A DNA stretch of 64,000 bases from Methanocalculus natronophilus (GTDB taxonomy: Archaea; Halobacteriota; Methanomicrobia; Methanomicrobiales; Methanocorpusculaceae), in the NCBI RefSeq assembly GCF_038751955.1, contig NZ_JBCEXH010000009.1, forward strand, positions 1-64,000, given 5' to 3'. Under the pieces are notes generated by a model. That model was not told the origin of the DNA. It ran no database searches and worked only from the letters and a program-made list of their open reading frames with translations. Of this stretch, positions 33,280-38,196 are shown one piece after another. The position numbers were made by a program, and so were the translations under genes. Position 1 is the stretch's first letter; every line of letters begins with the position of its first letter.

Positions 33280-33876
33280 TCACCTCACCGGCCAGAAATA
33301 CCGCTCCTCAGCCTCGAATACCGGACCATGGGGCATCGTGGCCTTCACGTCAATTCTGCCGATGCCCCGGTCAAGGCTTTTGAGATCGATATCGCTATAG
33401 GGTATCCAGATACCGCGGAGCTGATAGTTATCTTCGGGGAGTGACCGGTGAATCGTATAGAATCCACGGTAAAGCCGTCTTGGCGTAACCGGATTATTCC
33501 TGCGATCAGTCTCCGGAGAATAGATTGACACCTCCATGGAGATGGATGTCCGCTCAAATGAAACCGGACGGTTCATTGAATCGAAGAACCGGTACTTGAT
33601 GATCAATCCGTCCATATCATGGAATCCACCAAAATCCATCGTTTCTGCCCAGATCTCCATTCTGGCAACTGATGTCACCCCCCTGGCAGAAACCTGGGTT
33701 GCAGGCTGGTCGGTTGAGACAGGCTGTGGCGTTTCATCCGGAGGGTGGAATACTGCCTGGTCATGCTCTTTGTTCTCCTCTGCTTCTTCTGCGAGTCCCG
33801 GAAGGGTATACGTACACCCGGCAGTGACAAGCAGCAGGGTGAGGGAAAGGAGGAGTAAAATACGTGTATATGCCAT
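33280..33876 (-). CDS. Putative lipoprotein
   Basis: A 198-aa exported protein. The signal peptide ends in a lipobox-like LVTAGC (Cys at residue 21), so the mature protein is probably lipid-anchored outside the cell. A Glu/Gln-rich linker (about residues 29-60) is followed by a beta-rich domain with ARMEIWAETMDFGGF and YRGFYTIHRSLPEDNYQLRGIW. I do not recognise the family. It is convergent with the 60-aa gene and divergent from the large methyltransferase-like gene. Confidence 0.7.
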   Translation of the reverse strand: MAYTRILLLLSLTLLLVTAGCTYTLPGLAEEAEENKEHDQAVFHPPDETPQPVSTDQPATQVSARGVTSVARMEIWAETMDFGGFHDMDGLIIKYRFFDSMNRPVSFERTSISMEVSIYSPETDRRNNPVTPRRLYRGFYTIHRSLPEDNYQLRGIWIPYSDIDLKSLDRGIGRIDVKATMPHGPVFEAEERYFWPVR

Positions 33877-33952: not shown

Positions 33953-36061
33953 ATGAAACAGCACCAGGTTCCCGGTTGTATTATAGATTTTATTTCCCTG
34001 TATTGTGCTGGAAAAAGCTACCGGACAGTACTCTACCCCTGGATTGACAATCCAGACATACTGCCGGATCTATGGCTGGACATCCCTTTTGAGCAGCGGG
34101 TTGCCATCACAAACGATGATTATGCAGACGCACCTGATGGAGTCAGGCTTATCCGTGGCGACTCCATCCAAACCCTTGCCGGGTGTTCGCAGTTCTTTGA
34201 TCTGATCCTCTGTTTCCCTCCACGTGAAACAGGTGTTATCTCAGGTACGCTTATTGCAGAAGATACAAGCCCCATAGACATTCATGATGCTGCATACACT
34301 ATCGTCATCTTCAGTGCCGCACTTCGCCTCCAGCCCAAAGGAGCCTTATTTGCAGTTGTCTATCCCTCATTCCTCACCAATGGAAAACATATACATCTGC
34401 TGAACCGGCTCGGGCTCTTCTGTGAAGCAGCACTCTCCATCCCACAGGACGGCATCCCCAGAGAGATGGGAAAACTGCCCCTGCTCCTCATCATCAGAAA
34501 AGGAGCGTGTGATCAGCTGATGGCAGGGGAACTTGGACCTGATCGGTTTCGGCAGGAGATACTCCTTGGAAACCTGGCGACACGTACCAATGGAAAGAAA
34601 CCGGAACTCGGCATATTCGTCCCTTCCACGAGCTTCAGGAGCCTTGAGGAGATACGGCTCGATGAGACGATCAGGAGGCTCGCAGAAGAGCATGGCACCG
34701 CTCCTGTGCCCTTCTCGGGCATCACAAAGTCCATCTCCATCGGTGCATGCGGGACACTGCAGGATGCTGGCAGGAGGCTCTACCTTCCCCTCTCTCCGGA
34801 TGACCCACCAGTCACAACAGCAGACGATCTCACTGGTATGCCTGATGAAGCAGCATGCATTCTTCTCAGGCAATCTGTTGCAGATCCCGCCTACCTCTGC
34901 CATTTCTTTGATACGGAACTCGGCCGGGCGATCAGAAGGCGCATCATGATGAGAGCAGATGCAGACAGCGATATCCGGGAGCTGTTAGCCGAAACAGAGA
35001 TCTATCTGCCTCCTCCCCAGGTTCAGGCAGAGGTCATCAGAATCGACACGCTGATAGACACCATCATGAGCCGGCTGTCAGATATCAGAAAAGACCTTCT
35101 GGAACACCCCTATTCCACACAAAAAGCACTTGAACGGCTTGAGCAGCTGAAAGGAGATGATTCGGTTGCTGACTGGATAGAGGAGCTGCCGTTCCCGCTT
35201 GCATCAATTCTCTGGGCATATATCGCAGAGAGCAGCCCATCAAAGAAGGTTGCCCATCTCTTCCATTTCTTTGAGGCAGCAGCAGAACTGAACTCAGGCA
35301 TCCTCCTCTCCATGCTTGAGCCTTCTGCAAGGTCCGGAAACGTGGATCTCCTGGATGATAATCCAGCCTATCGTGGGATATACCTGAATGCGACCTTCAG
35401 AAGCTGGATTATCCTCTCAAGGCGTGCCGCACGGCTGATCAGAAGAGAGTCGGAGTCCCTTTGGAGAGGTGATGGGGAATTGTCATTTCTCATCAGGGCA
35501 AACCGTGACTTTCTCAGTATGGTGACGAGCAAGAGGCTCTTTGCCCTCCTTGATGAGGTTGCTGACCTCAGAAACGACTGGAAAGGGCATGGGGGCATCG
35601 TCGGTGAGAAAGGGTATGAAGAGCGGCTTGGAACACTTGAAATCTACCTGAACCGCTGCAGAAGTATTCTCCGGGATCGTTTCAGGGATACTGTCCTGAT
35701 CCAGCCGGGTGCAGGAACCTACCGTGATGGCATATTCACCTACCAGGTGCAGGTACTCACCGGATCACGACACCGGTTTCGGCGGATGACCATCAGCACA
35801 CTCATGCCCCTTGATACAGAAAAGCTGTACCTCTATCCACGGGAAGGCGGAAATCCCCTTGAACTGCTCCCATTCTTCAGACTGATCATCCACCCCGAAA
35901 CCAGAAACCCTGCATGGTACTTCTATAACCGGATGGATGGAAGAGATGTGCGGTGGGTGTCGTACCATTATGAGGCGCAACCAGAGTTTACAGAAGAAAA
36001 TGAAGAGGTATATACTGCAATGAAGACGTTTGGCCTGATCCTGGAGGAAGCACCCCGGTGA
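33953..36061 (+). CDS. Degenerate N6-DNA-methylase-like protein with HEPN-type motif
   Basis: A 702-aa protein that I cannot assign to a named family. Residues 1-180 resemble a type I/IIG adenine methylase core, but the SAM loop is replaced by LYPWIDNP (27-34) and the catalytic NPPY by FPPR (88-91), so methyl transfer is unlikely. YLPPPQVQAE (351-360) resembles the PLPPLxxQ start of specificity-domain helices and is followed by a coiled segment. In an all-helical region, R540-N541-x4-H546 matches the R-phi-x4-H signature of HEPN ribonucleases and related proteins. A beta-rich tail (about 575-690) closes it. The ATG at 33953 is the first in-frame start past the promoter. The stop overlaps the OGG1 gene (GTGA). 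Confidence 0.7.
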   Translation: MKQHQVPGCIIDFISLYCAGKSYRTVLYPWIDNPDILPDLWLDIPFEQRVAITNDDYADAPDGVRLIRGDSIQTLAGCSQFFDLILCFPPRETGVISGTLIAEDTSPIDIHDAAYTIVIFSAALRLQPKGALFAVVYPSFLTNGKHIHLLNRLGLFCEAALSIPQDGIPREMGKLPLLLIIRKGACDQLMAGELGPDRFRQEILLGNLATRTNGKKPELGIFVPSTSFRSLEEIRLDETIRRLAEEHGTAPVPFSGITKSISIGACGTLQDAGRRLYLPLSPDDPPVTTADDLTGMPDEAACILLRQSVADPAYLCHFFDTELGRAIRRRIMMRADADSDIRELLAETEIYLPPPQVQAEVIRIDTLIDTIMSRLSDIRKDLLEHPYSTQKALERLEQLKGDDSVADWIEELPFPLASILWAYIAESSPSKKVAHLFHFFEAAAELNSGILLSMLEPSARSGNVDLLDDNPAYRGIYLNATFRSWIILSRRAARLIRRESESLWRGDGELSFLIRANRDFLSMVTSKRLFALLDEVADLRNDWKGHGGIVGEKGYEERLGTLEIYLNRCRSILRDRFRDTVLIQPGAGTYRDGIFTYQVQVLTGSRHRFRRMTISTLMPLDTEKLYLYPREGGNPLELLPFFRLIIHPETRNPAWYFYNRMDGRDVRWVSYHYEAQPEFTEENEEVYTAMKTFGLILEEAPR

Positions 36062-36897
36062 GCTACAGAAGCCTCCTGCTTGAAGGGGACGCGCTTCCAT
36101 TCAATCTCGATAGAACGCTTCTCTGCGGACAGGTTTTCAGGTGGGAGAAGACCGGGCAGTGGTGGACTGGCATCCTGGCAGACAACGTCGTCCACATCAG
36201 GCAGGATGGAAGAGAGCTTCATTTCACAGGCACAACGGGGGAAGAGATCACCAGGTACTTCGATCTGGATCGGGATCTTGAAGCGATACTTGCTAGTTTT
36301 CCGGATCACCCAATCCTGAACCTGGCAGTTGACCATGCACGGGGACTCCGTGTTATCAGGCAGCCTGCCTGGGAATGCACAGCCTCCTATATCGTCGCCA
36401 CGTTTGCAAACATACCGGGAATACAGACACGTATCAGGCTTCTCTGTGAGCGGTTCGGAGATGAGGTTGCACCCGGCAGGCATGCCTTCCCTTCACCACG
36501 CTCCCTTGCAGCGTCACCGCTCTGTGACATCAGGGATTGTCGTGTCGGGTACAGGGACCGGTATCTCTGCAACACTGCCATGATGATTACAGAAAACCCG
36601 GCATGGGAGAGAGAGATATGGGATCTTCCCTACCAGGAAGCCCGCAAAAAACTCCTCGCCTATCCGGGTGTCGGGAAGAAGGTGGCAGACTGTATCCTCC
36701 TCTTTGCATTCCACCACTTCGAGGCAGTGCCGGTTGATGTCTGGATTGAACGGATCATGCAACAACACTTTCTCACCCGGGATCTGCGCCTTCCATATGA
36801 CAGAATCGCAGATGCTGCAAGAGATATCTTTGGACCATATGCCGGGTATGCCCAGGAGTATCTCTTTGCAGCACGGGATATCATCCCAAAAAAGTAG
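36058..36897 (+). CDS. ogg: 8-oxoguanine DNA glycosylase/AP lyase (OGG1 type)
   Basis: Removes 8-oxoguanine from DNA and nicks the resulting abasic site. A 279-aa protein with the OGG1 N-terminal domain (FNLDRTLLCGQVFRW, residues 15-29) and the helix-hairpin-helix motif YPGVGKKVADCILLFAFHHFEAVPVD. Catalytic K208 and D227 are in place by alignment to LPGVGTKVADC and VPVD of the human enzyme. Start is the GTG at 36058 overlapping the stop of the methylase-like gene, so the two genes are translationally coupled. Confidence 0.92.
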   Translation: MSYRSLLLEGDALPFNLDRTLLCGQVFRWEKTGQWWTGILADNVVHIRQDGRELHFTGTTGEEITRYFDLDRDLEAILASFPDHPILNLAVDHARGLRVIRQPAWECTASYIVATFANIPGIQTRIRLLCERFGDEVAPGRHAFPSPRSLAASPLCDIRDCRVGYRDRYLCNTAMMITENPAWEREIWDLPYQEARKKLLAYPGVGKKVADCILLFAFHHFEAVPVDVWIERIMQQHFLTRDLRLPYDRIADAARDIFGPYAGYAQEYLFAARDIIPKK

Positions 36898-36919: not shown

Positions 36920-38143
36920 TCAGGTGCCGACATCCCATGAGGACATATATTCCTGCTGTTCTTCGTTCATGGTATCGATTCTGCACCCAAGTGAAGACAG
37001 CTTCAGCATTGCAATCTGTTCATCAATTGCGGTTGGCACCTCGTGAACACCGGGTTTGAGTTCCCTCCCGCTTTTGACCATATATTCGGTTGAGAGTGCC
37101 TGGACGGCAAAGGAGAGATCCATCACCTCAATCGGATGGCCCATTCCCTTTGGAACAGCCAGGTTTACGAGACGGCCTTCTGCCAGCACATGGATTGTCC
37201 TGTCACCGAAGGTATACGAATCGATACCATCACGGCGCCGGATCATATCTGCATTCGTCTCAAGCCAGCCGATATCGATCTCGACATTGAAGTGTCCCGC
37301 ATTACAGAGGATAGCGCCATCCCGCATACAGGCAAAGTCTTCGCTTGTCAGCACACCAATGTTGCCGGTTGCCGTGATGAAGAGTTCGCCAACCGATGCC
37401 GCCTCACGCATCGTCATCAGTTCAAACCCGTCAAAGTGAGCCTGAAGTGCACGCCTTGGATCGATCTCGGTGACGATCACCCGTGCGCCGAGCGCACGTG
37501 CCTTTGTTGCAAGTCCGCGGCCGCAGTACCCATATCCCGCAACGACCACGTACTTGCCTGCGATCAGGGTATTGGTTGTTGCCATAATCGCTGTCAGCGC
37601 ACTCTCCCCGGTACCATGGACATTATCGAAGAAATGTTTCATCGGGGTGTCATTCACGGCAATAACCGGGAATCTGAGTTTTCCTTCCCTCGTCATTGCC
37701 CTGAGACGATGGATGCCGGTGGTTGTCTCTTCGCAACCCCCGATGACAGAGTCCAGCATATCCCGCCGTCCCCGATGAAGACGGTGGATCAGATCCATCC
37801 CGTCATCAATGGTAATCACAGGAGCCGCATCAAGCACACGGTCAATTGCAGCATAGTATTCCTCAAGTGTGCATGCTCTCTTTGCATGACAGCGGACGTT
37901 GGAATTCCTGAGCGCTTCAGCCACATCATCCTGCGTCGAGAGGGGATTGCATCCGGTGATATGGACATCAGCACCACCCGCCATAAGCGTCCTGACGAGG
38001 ACTGCGGTCTTTGCCTCAACATGGAGGGCCATGCCGATGACTATGCCTGCAAGCGGCTGCTCATCTGCAAACCTCTCCCTGATCTCCCTCAGGACCGGCA
38101 TATACTGCTCAGCCCAGAGGATCTTTGCTTCTCCTGTCTGCAT
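36920..38143 (-). CDS. ahcY: S-adenosyl/S-inosylhomocysteine hydrolase
   Basis: A 407-aa NAD-dependent hydrolase that removes the product inhibitor of methyl transfer. It shows the ligand and catalytic segments ETTTGIHRL, VNDTPMKHFFDNVHGTGES (given for its core NVHGTGES), the NAD loop VVAGYGYCGRG and the C-terminal LAEGRLVNLAVPKGMGHP (key GRLVNL). In Methanocaldococcus the homologue prefers S-inosylhomocysteine, formed after deamination of S-adenosylhomocysteine; the same may hold here. The ATG at 38143 follows AGGGGAG by a few bases, better than the upstream frame extension. It lacks the long C-terminal Lys-Tyr tail of bacterial enzymes. Confidence 0.92.
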   Translation of the reverse strand: MQTGEAKILWAEQYMPVLREIRERFADEQPLAGIVIGMALHVEAKTAVLVRTLMAGGADVHITGCNPLSTQDDVAEALRNSNVRCHAKRACTLEEYYAAIDRVLDAAPVITIDDGMDLIHRLHRGRRDMLDSVIGGCEETTTGIHRLRAMTREGKLRFPVIAVNDTPMKHFFDNVHGTGESALTAIMATTNTLIAGKYVVVAGYGYCGRGLATKARALGARVIVTEIDPRRALQAHFDGFELMTMREAASVGELFITATGNIGVLTSEDFACMRDGAILCNAGHFNVEIDIGWLETNADMIRRRDGIDSYTFGDRTIHVLAEGRLVNLAVPKGMGHPIEVMDLSFAVQALSTEYMVKSGRELKPGVHEVPTAIDEQIAMLKLSSLGCRIDTMNEEQQEYMSSWDVGT

Positions 38144-38160
38144 GATACTCCCCTGGTAAG

Positions 38161-38196
38161 TGATTACTTGCATCTCTGATTACTTAATAAATCCCA
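38161..38196 (-). promoter_or_regulatory. ahcY promoter with direct repeat
   Basis: On the minus strand GGATTTATTAAG (about 38185-38196) is a fitting TATA element for ahcY. TGATTACTT occurs twice on the plus strand, at 38161-38169 and 38177-38185, spaced 16 bases centre to centre and overlapping the expected transcript start, as an operator would. Confidence 0.4.

Follow-up and report, generated by a model that had tools for sequence, protein, structure and literature searches.

The best-described counterparts of the protein analysed here are RNases encoded with type I restriction-modification (R-M) systems. PrrC is a HEPN-type RNase whose gene lies within the hsd operon of the type Ic system EcoprrI; it is silenced by EcoprrI and released by the phage product Stp, and release upon disabled restriction has been proposed (PMC2610378). 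RloC, a HEPN RNase likewise linked to type I R-M, also occurs as orphan copies, and an hsdR relic adjoins one rloC copy (PMC2610378). In the DUF499-HEPN proteins of R-M or BREX-related (Hma) systems, a Swt1-like HEPN domain with an RNxWAH motif shares its chain with an AAA+ ATPase, the methylase of these systems being a separate protein (PMC12839542). A 2013 HEPN survey states that in R-M systems HEPN domains are joined to nucleases, helicases and ATPases "but not to the methylases", although a table in the same survey records a few HEPN-M domains fused with methylase domains for nucleic acids (PMC3710099).

The 702-aa protein X of Methanocalculus natronophilus, encoded in a window of 64,000 nucleotides (the whole stretch of DNA analysed), belongs to a family that shares features with each of these. 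Like PrrC and RloC, its family places a gene with a HEPN-like domain beside or within type I R-M genes and also has orphan copies; X differs from them in joining a dead methylase, a target recognition domain (TRD) and a C-terminal beta domain, and it carries neither the ABC ATPase of PrrC nor the Rad50-like ABC ATPase with zinc hook of RloC (searches found no ATPase family match). The Swt1-like domain of the DUF499-HEPN proteins is its best profile match. Type IIG enzymes such as BpuSI, as well as M.TaqI, resemble X in having a methylase fold and TRD in one chain, but in X motifs I and IV are lost, and a HEPN-like domain is found where no DNA endonuclease domain could be recognised. The MADS methylase mad2 and HsdM show sequence similarity to the methylase part of some X relatives, though not of X itself; both are named as active methylases, and neither has the HEPN-like or the beta domain. 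The earlier note on this locus knew of no described system with such a layout. A literature search of open-access PMC likewise found no published description of the family; what that note missed is that complete type I R-M operons house bacterial members of the family, which makes PrrC/EcoprrI the closest known layout.

Anatomy of X

The 702-aa reading frame, the GTGA in which its stop codon overlaps the GTG start of an OGG1-type glycosylase gene (36058-36061), and every motif named in the earlier note lie exactly where that note had put them (Table 1). A longer reading from an in-frame start at 33536 was rejected, as it overlaps the oppositely oriented gene at 33280-33876 and is unsupported by homologues. 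Direct searches of Pfam, NCBIfam, PADLOC and PDB sequences with X gave no useful match. The domains follow each other in the order methylase, TRD, HEPN-like domain and beta domain; the AlphaFold model of X has a pLDDT of 88.3.

Table 1. Features of the X locus, with positions in the window.
Feature	Position	Strand	Basis
X, pseudo-methylase/TRD/HEPN-like/beta-domain protein	33953..36061	+	ORF, homologue alignment, AlphaFold model
Methylase-like domain of X, residues 1-195, gamma-class N6-adenine methylase fold	33953..34537	+	Foldseek, dN/dS
Degenerate SAM loop PWIDNP, residues 29-34	34037..34054	+	alignment column
Degenerate motif IV FPPR, residues 88-91	34214..34225	+	alignment column
TRD-like region and long helix, residues 196-404	34538..35164	+	secondary structure, weak Specificity_I profile
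All-helical HEPN-like domain, residues 405-580	35165..35692	+	model, dN/dS, hhalign to HEPN_Swt1
E441, nearly invariant acidic residue, first long helix	35273..35275	+	alignment
R540-N-D-W-K-G-H546-G-G motif	35570..35596	+	R540 and H546 invariant in 41 sequences
C-terminal beta domain, YFYNR...VSYH, residues 581-702	35693..36058	+	alignment, secondary structure
OGG1-type 8-oxoguanine DNA glycosylase, 279 aa, conserved K208 and D227	36058..36897	+	OGG_N, TIGR00588, alignment
Adenosylhomocysteinase, convergent ancestral neighbour of the glycosylase gene	36920..38173	-	neighbourhood comparison
Lipoprotein-like gene starting MAYTRILLLLSLTLLLVTAGC (product probably a lipoprotein), divergent to X	33280-33876	opposite to X	kept in Methanocalculus at this locus

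The view that the N-terminus is a dead methylase of type I/IIG character is borne out both by its fold and by its motifs. Foldseek aligns it with M.TaqI (E 1.1e-8, prob 1.00, methylase fold with TRD), CamA, HsdM (2okc) and the type IIG enzyme BpuSI. X relatives match PF02384 N6_Mtase, and the Lokiarchaeal relative additionally matches HsdM_N. The canonical motif IV, [DNS]PP[YFW], is absent from 36 of the 37 relatives whose alignment covers these columns, being FPPR in X and FPPF, IPPI, EIPY, VLPF and other variants elsewhere. The SAM-binding motif I is lost throughout Methanocalculus, and a DPxxGxG-like loop is partly kept in Methanomicrobiaceae and several bacterial relatives. Since motif IV is gone nearly everywhere and motif I is gone in Methanocalculus, the loss of motif IV seems to be old and the decay of motif I later. 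The one canonical motif IV belongs to a distant member (L050, 674-2738) with an intact core (DPACGSG, NPPF) and an RNETIGHGG motif; its reading frame is broken near the C-terminus, perhaps because it is a relic or through an assembly error. The specificity-like helix entered at PPPQVQAE (residues 353-360) is supported by a Specificity_I profile match that is weak in X and stronger in relatives.

The helical domain carries the strongest conservation. The 41-sequence family alignment has just two invariant columns, R540 and H546; the residue after R is N in at least 90%, and among 12 aligned copies from Methanomicrobiales R540, N541, W543, K544, H546, G547 and G548 are all invariant. The earlier note had proposed an R-N-x4-H signature in an all-helical region, and both elements stand: R540-N541-D542-W543-K544-G545-H546 occupies 35570-35590, and residues 404-582 are modelled as all helical (pLDDT 87.6, pTM 0.87). 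The Rx5H spacing falls inside the Rx4-6H range of HEPN domains, with N as the polar residue after R, and an upstream acidic residue comparable to E441 has also been described (PMC3710099). The motif is not a chance occurrence, given the presence of X in 13 genomes and the invariance of these two residues alone across the family alignment. Nor is its conservation merely a search effect: one of the two patterns used to collect genome contigs contains the motif, but all 10 relatives matching the other, motif-independent pattern keep R and H (five of them miss the motif pattern), as do the copies found by whole-protein search. Simple Nei-Gojobori counts in three pairs of moderately diverged genomes place the strongest purifying selection within X on this domain (dN/dS 0.06-0.11), followed by the beta domain (0.10-0.14), the methylase part being the fastest-evolving (0.28-0.37). 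In a fourth pair, of very similar genomes (L007/L010), the HEPN-like, TRD and beta parts cannot be told apart in this way. One family member in a metagenome-assembled genome of the same phylum (L048, 8435-10747) has a divergent R-x4-H site, YRRACAHDP, and may have lost its RNase site.

Is the helical domain a HEPN domain? An hhalign comparison with HEPN_Swt1, using a Swt1-like alignment built from genomes of the phylum of X, gives 62% (score 34.5, P 7.5e-5), while reversed, 60 column-permuted and other-domain controls reach at most 0.8% and a score of 17.0. Masking residues 540-548 abolishes this match, so the similarity is driven by the motif. No Pfam HEPN model scores above threshold, assignment through DUF4145 is unsupported (hhalign 0.3%), and Foldseek searches of the domain found nothing significant among viral models and no HEPN among the 50 PDB matches listed (best E 0.82), the method being weak for small helical bundles. 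The identification put forward earlier holds for motif, spacing and the all-helical model, and is likely as a whole. The domain is named HEPN-like here because the profile match depends on the motif and Foldseek listed no HEPN structure; it is quite probably a true HEPN RNase. Swt1-like HEPN domains are also fused in methanogen proteins of about 1,200 aa (L128 on contig C1 of G003, and L130 in G050), which probably belong to DUF499-type R-M/BREX-related systems. The C-terminal beta domain is kept family-wide, has no Pfam match and is possibly a ligand- or RNA-binding module.

Distribution and restriction neighbours

X was found in 13 genomes of Methanomicrobiales: seven of the Methanocalculus group (one copy cut by a contig end), with M. 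chunghsingensis and M. taiwanensis among the genus-mates compared, five of the Methanomicrobiaceae group in two genera with the same neighbour gene, and one further genus with a divergent copy (G033). A pattern search of genome contigs yielded 34 loci, including ones from Methanomicrobiales, Candidatus Kuenenia, Dehalococcoidia, Deltaproteobacteria, Aminicenantes, Bacteroidota, Sinobaca, Streptomyces, Nocardiopsis, Planctomycetota, Lachnospiraceae, a cyanobacterial bin and Lokiarchaeota. The family is thus sparse and patchy across many bacterial phyla and Lokiarchaeota. Direct tblastn added relatives on Streptomyces and Gordonia plasmids annotated as "N-6 DNA methylase". A phage origin was considered and dropped, as no phage record and only one viral contig matched.

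Outside the clade linked to ogg1, 11 of about 29 X loci sit within or beside type I R-M genes; for a random gene about 1% would be expected, as a rough estimate and not a calculated value. The neighbours were grouped into HsdM, HsdS and HsdR clusters by all-against-all comparison, with longest-ORF gene calls in unannotated contigs, and confirmed by Pfam (HsdM_N, N6_Mtase, Methylase_S, HSDR_N, EcoEI_R_C) and, in Gordonia, by RefSeq names. The gene order is M-S-X-R at L058 (Kuenenia, 4-nt overlap of S and X) and L061 (Aminicenantes), the same with extra genes between at L073 and L059 (overlap of X and R), M-S-R-X at L045, L068, L074 and L086 (overlap of R and X), and R-M-S-X at L070; at L076 and L083 the R-M genes are nearby on the other strand. 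The divergent G033 copy (L049) is preceded, with a 4-nt overlap, by an HsdS-like ORF of 124 aa, a remnant without Pfam match. Counting this case, 12 of the 33 rows of the family tree are linked, and linkage is scattered, requiring at least eight changes. The earlier note had held that homologues combining an intact methylase core with regular restriction partners would speak against its reading; the partners are there in these 11 loci, and the intact core in only 1 of 37 relatives. About 18 of the 29 relatives have no adjoining R-M genes.

X itself is not encoded with hsdM, hsdS or hsdR, and a mobile defence island around it was ruled out, as the window holds housekeeping genes. Its genome has one type I R-M system, on another contig, so X could act in trans. 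That operon (L184, 4246-14543, contig C5 of G000) reads HsdM-HsdS-(DUF262-like)-(Schlafen/AlbA-like)-HsdR, the two inserted accessory genes being named by eye, and contains no X-like gene. HsdS matches occur in seven of the eight genomes of the genus, one of them a weak fragment. G001, a 93% complete Methanocalculus genome that has X, has no detected HsdS, so an R-M system in trans is not obligatory for X.

The ogg1 locus

The gene downstream of X encodes an OGG1-type glycosylase with OGG_N (1.9e-18) and HhH-GPD features and a TIGR00588 match (8e-51) below the strict cut-off of that model. K208 and D227, invariant in the alignment, are presumably the catalytic Lys and Asp positions known from human OGG1. 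X lies directly upstream of ogg1 in all 10 loci examined for spacing, from an overlap to a gap of 6 nt, and these loci span three genera in two families.

The earlier note took X and OGG1 to form one unit of recognition and base excision. This did not survive comparison: ogg1 was found in 134 of the 135 good genomes of this order, and in most of the order it faces the adenosylhomocysteinase gene in convergent orientation without X being there. OGG1 was therefore rejected as a dedicated partner, since nearly every genome of the order has it and it occupied the locus before X. In two genomes of the sister genus (L112, L119) a phenylacetate-CoA-ligase gene stands divergent to ogg1, with no X between them. 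All X copies next to ogg1 fall into a single clade (SH-aLRT 100), and no X relative outside that clade has ogg1 nearby. X was thus gained once at an existing ogg1 locus and then co-inherited, perhaps with later losses.

A candidate guard of restriction

Because bacterial relatives sit inside ordinary restriction systems, these observations suggest that the family consists of little-known last-resort antiviral guard proteins. The reading we favour, at a probability of roughly 0.5, is that X is an orphaned member of a type I R-M guard family that pairs a decoy methylase/specificity part with a HEPN-type RNase. The family would have arisen from an HsdM/HsdS-like one-chain methylase and target-recognition protein whose catalytic motifs decayed, with a HEPN-type RNase domain taking the place of an endonuclease. 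A sensor or decoy role fits a methylase part that is nearly always dead. The ligand of this part may be DNA itself, the complex of HsdM and HsdS or a DNA mimic that counters restriction; at rest, the part would keep the RNase inhibited. Disabled restriction, for instance through an anti-restriction protein of a phage, would free the R540/H546 site to cut RNA, perhaps tRNA, so that translation stops and infection is aborted, much as proposed for PrrC with EcoprrI. Observed are the anatomy, the loss and conservation of motifs, the R-M linkage of relatives and the single clade beside ogg1; what we infer is RNase activity, its inhibition and release, the antiviral role and any cooperation in trans with the R-M system elsewhere in this genome. 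In Methanocalculus and some Methanomicrobiaceae, X would have lost its R-M neighbours and settled once upstream of the housekeeping gene ogg1, with which it is probably co-translated, and would owe its retention to strong selection on its RNase-like domain. A narrower version makes X specifically a decoy for phage DNA mimics of the Ocr/ArdA kind, whose binding would free the built-in RNase, with one archaeal branch domesticated beside ogg1; we regard it as doubtful.

Could X work without any restriction partner? It might be a self-contained abortive-infection protein whose TRD and dead methylase directly recognise DNA that is foreign or unmodified and then activate the RNase, R-M genes being merely convenient neighbours. 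The lack of an adjoining R-M gene for X itself and for most Bacteroidota and most Streptomyces copies would agree with this, as would the patchy spread over phyla; however, in several distant lineages the gene sits within an hsd operon with 4-nt overlaps, and an HsdS remnant precedes an orphan copy, which points to co-function with type I R-M and makes full independence unlikely. A model that keeps the R-M connection and gives up the RNase, in which X is a pseudo-methylase/specificity subunit regulating or titrating type I R-M and the R..H and GG turn serve structure or oligomerisation, draws on the absence of Foldseek and Pfam HEPN matches and on a profile similarity confined to the motif. 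Set against it are the invariance of R and H alone over 41 diverse proteins in HEPN order and spacing with N after R (PMC3710099), and the strongest selection falling on the helical domain while the DNA-handling part decays, and we hold it to be distinctly unlikely. The tight X-ogg1 spacing over ten loci in three genera and two families could instead mean that X was re-used with OGG1 in Methanomicrobiales, the dead methylase sensing oxidised or modified DNA and the RNase pausing growth during repair. Such a role is very improbable, since ogg1 and adenosylhomocysteinase are an older pair that does without X in most of the order, relatives outside the clade are never near ogg1, and one vertically inherited insertion (clade support 100) can explain the adjacency.

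The guard reading offers a directly testable model of how cells sense disabled restriction, and the decoy mechanism, if true, would define a new class of R-M guard toxin, a HEPN effector with a methylase-fold sensor. The family is in any case a HEPN-like/methylase fusion found in many lineages, its methylase nearly always dead. The "N-6 DNA methylase" annotation, where visible, keeps it out of sight of defence surveys, and none of the PADLOC models is dedicated to it. A further neighbourhood may concern SAM metabolism: one Deltaproteobacterial relative (L060, 4851-9890) lies directly downstream of metK-like and adenosylhomocysteinase genes, and the proximity of adenosylhomocysteinase to X both there and in Methanocalculus, with ogg1 between, is possibly a coincidence or a link to SAM/SAH metabolism.
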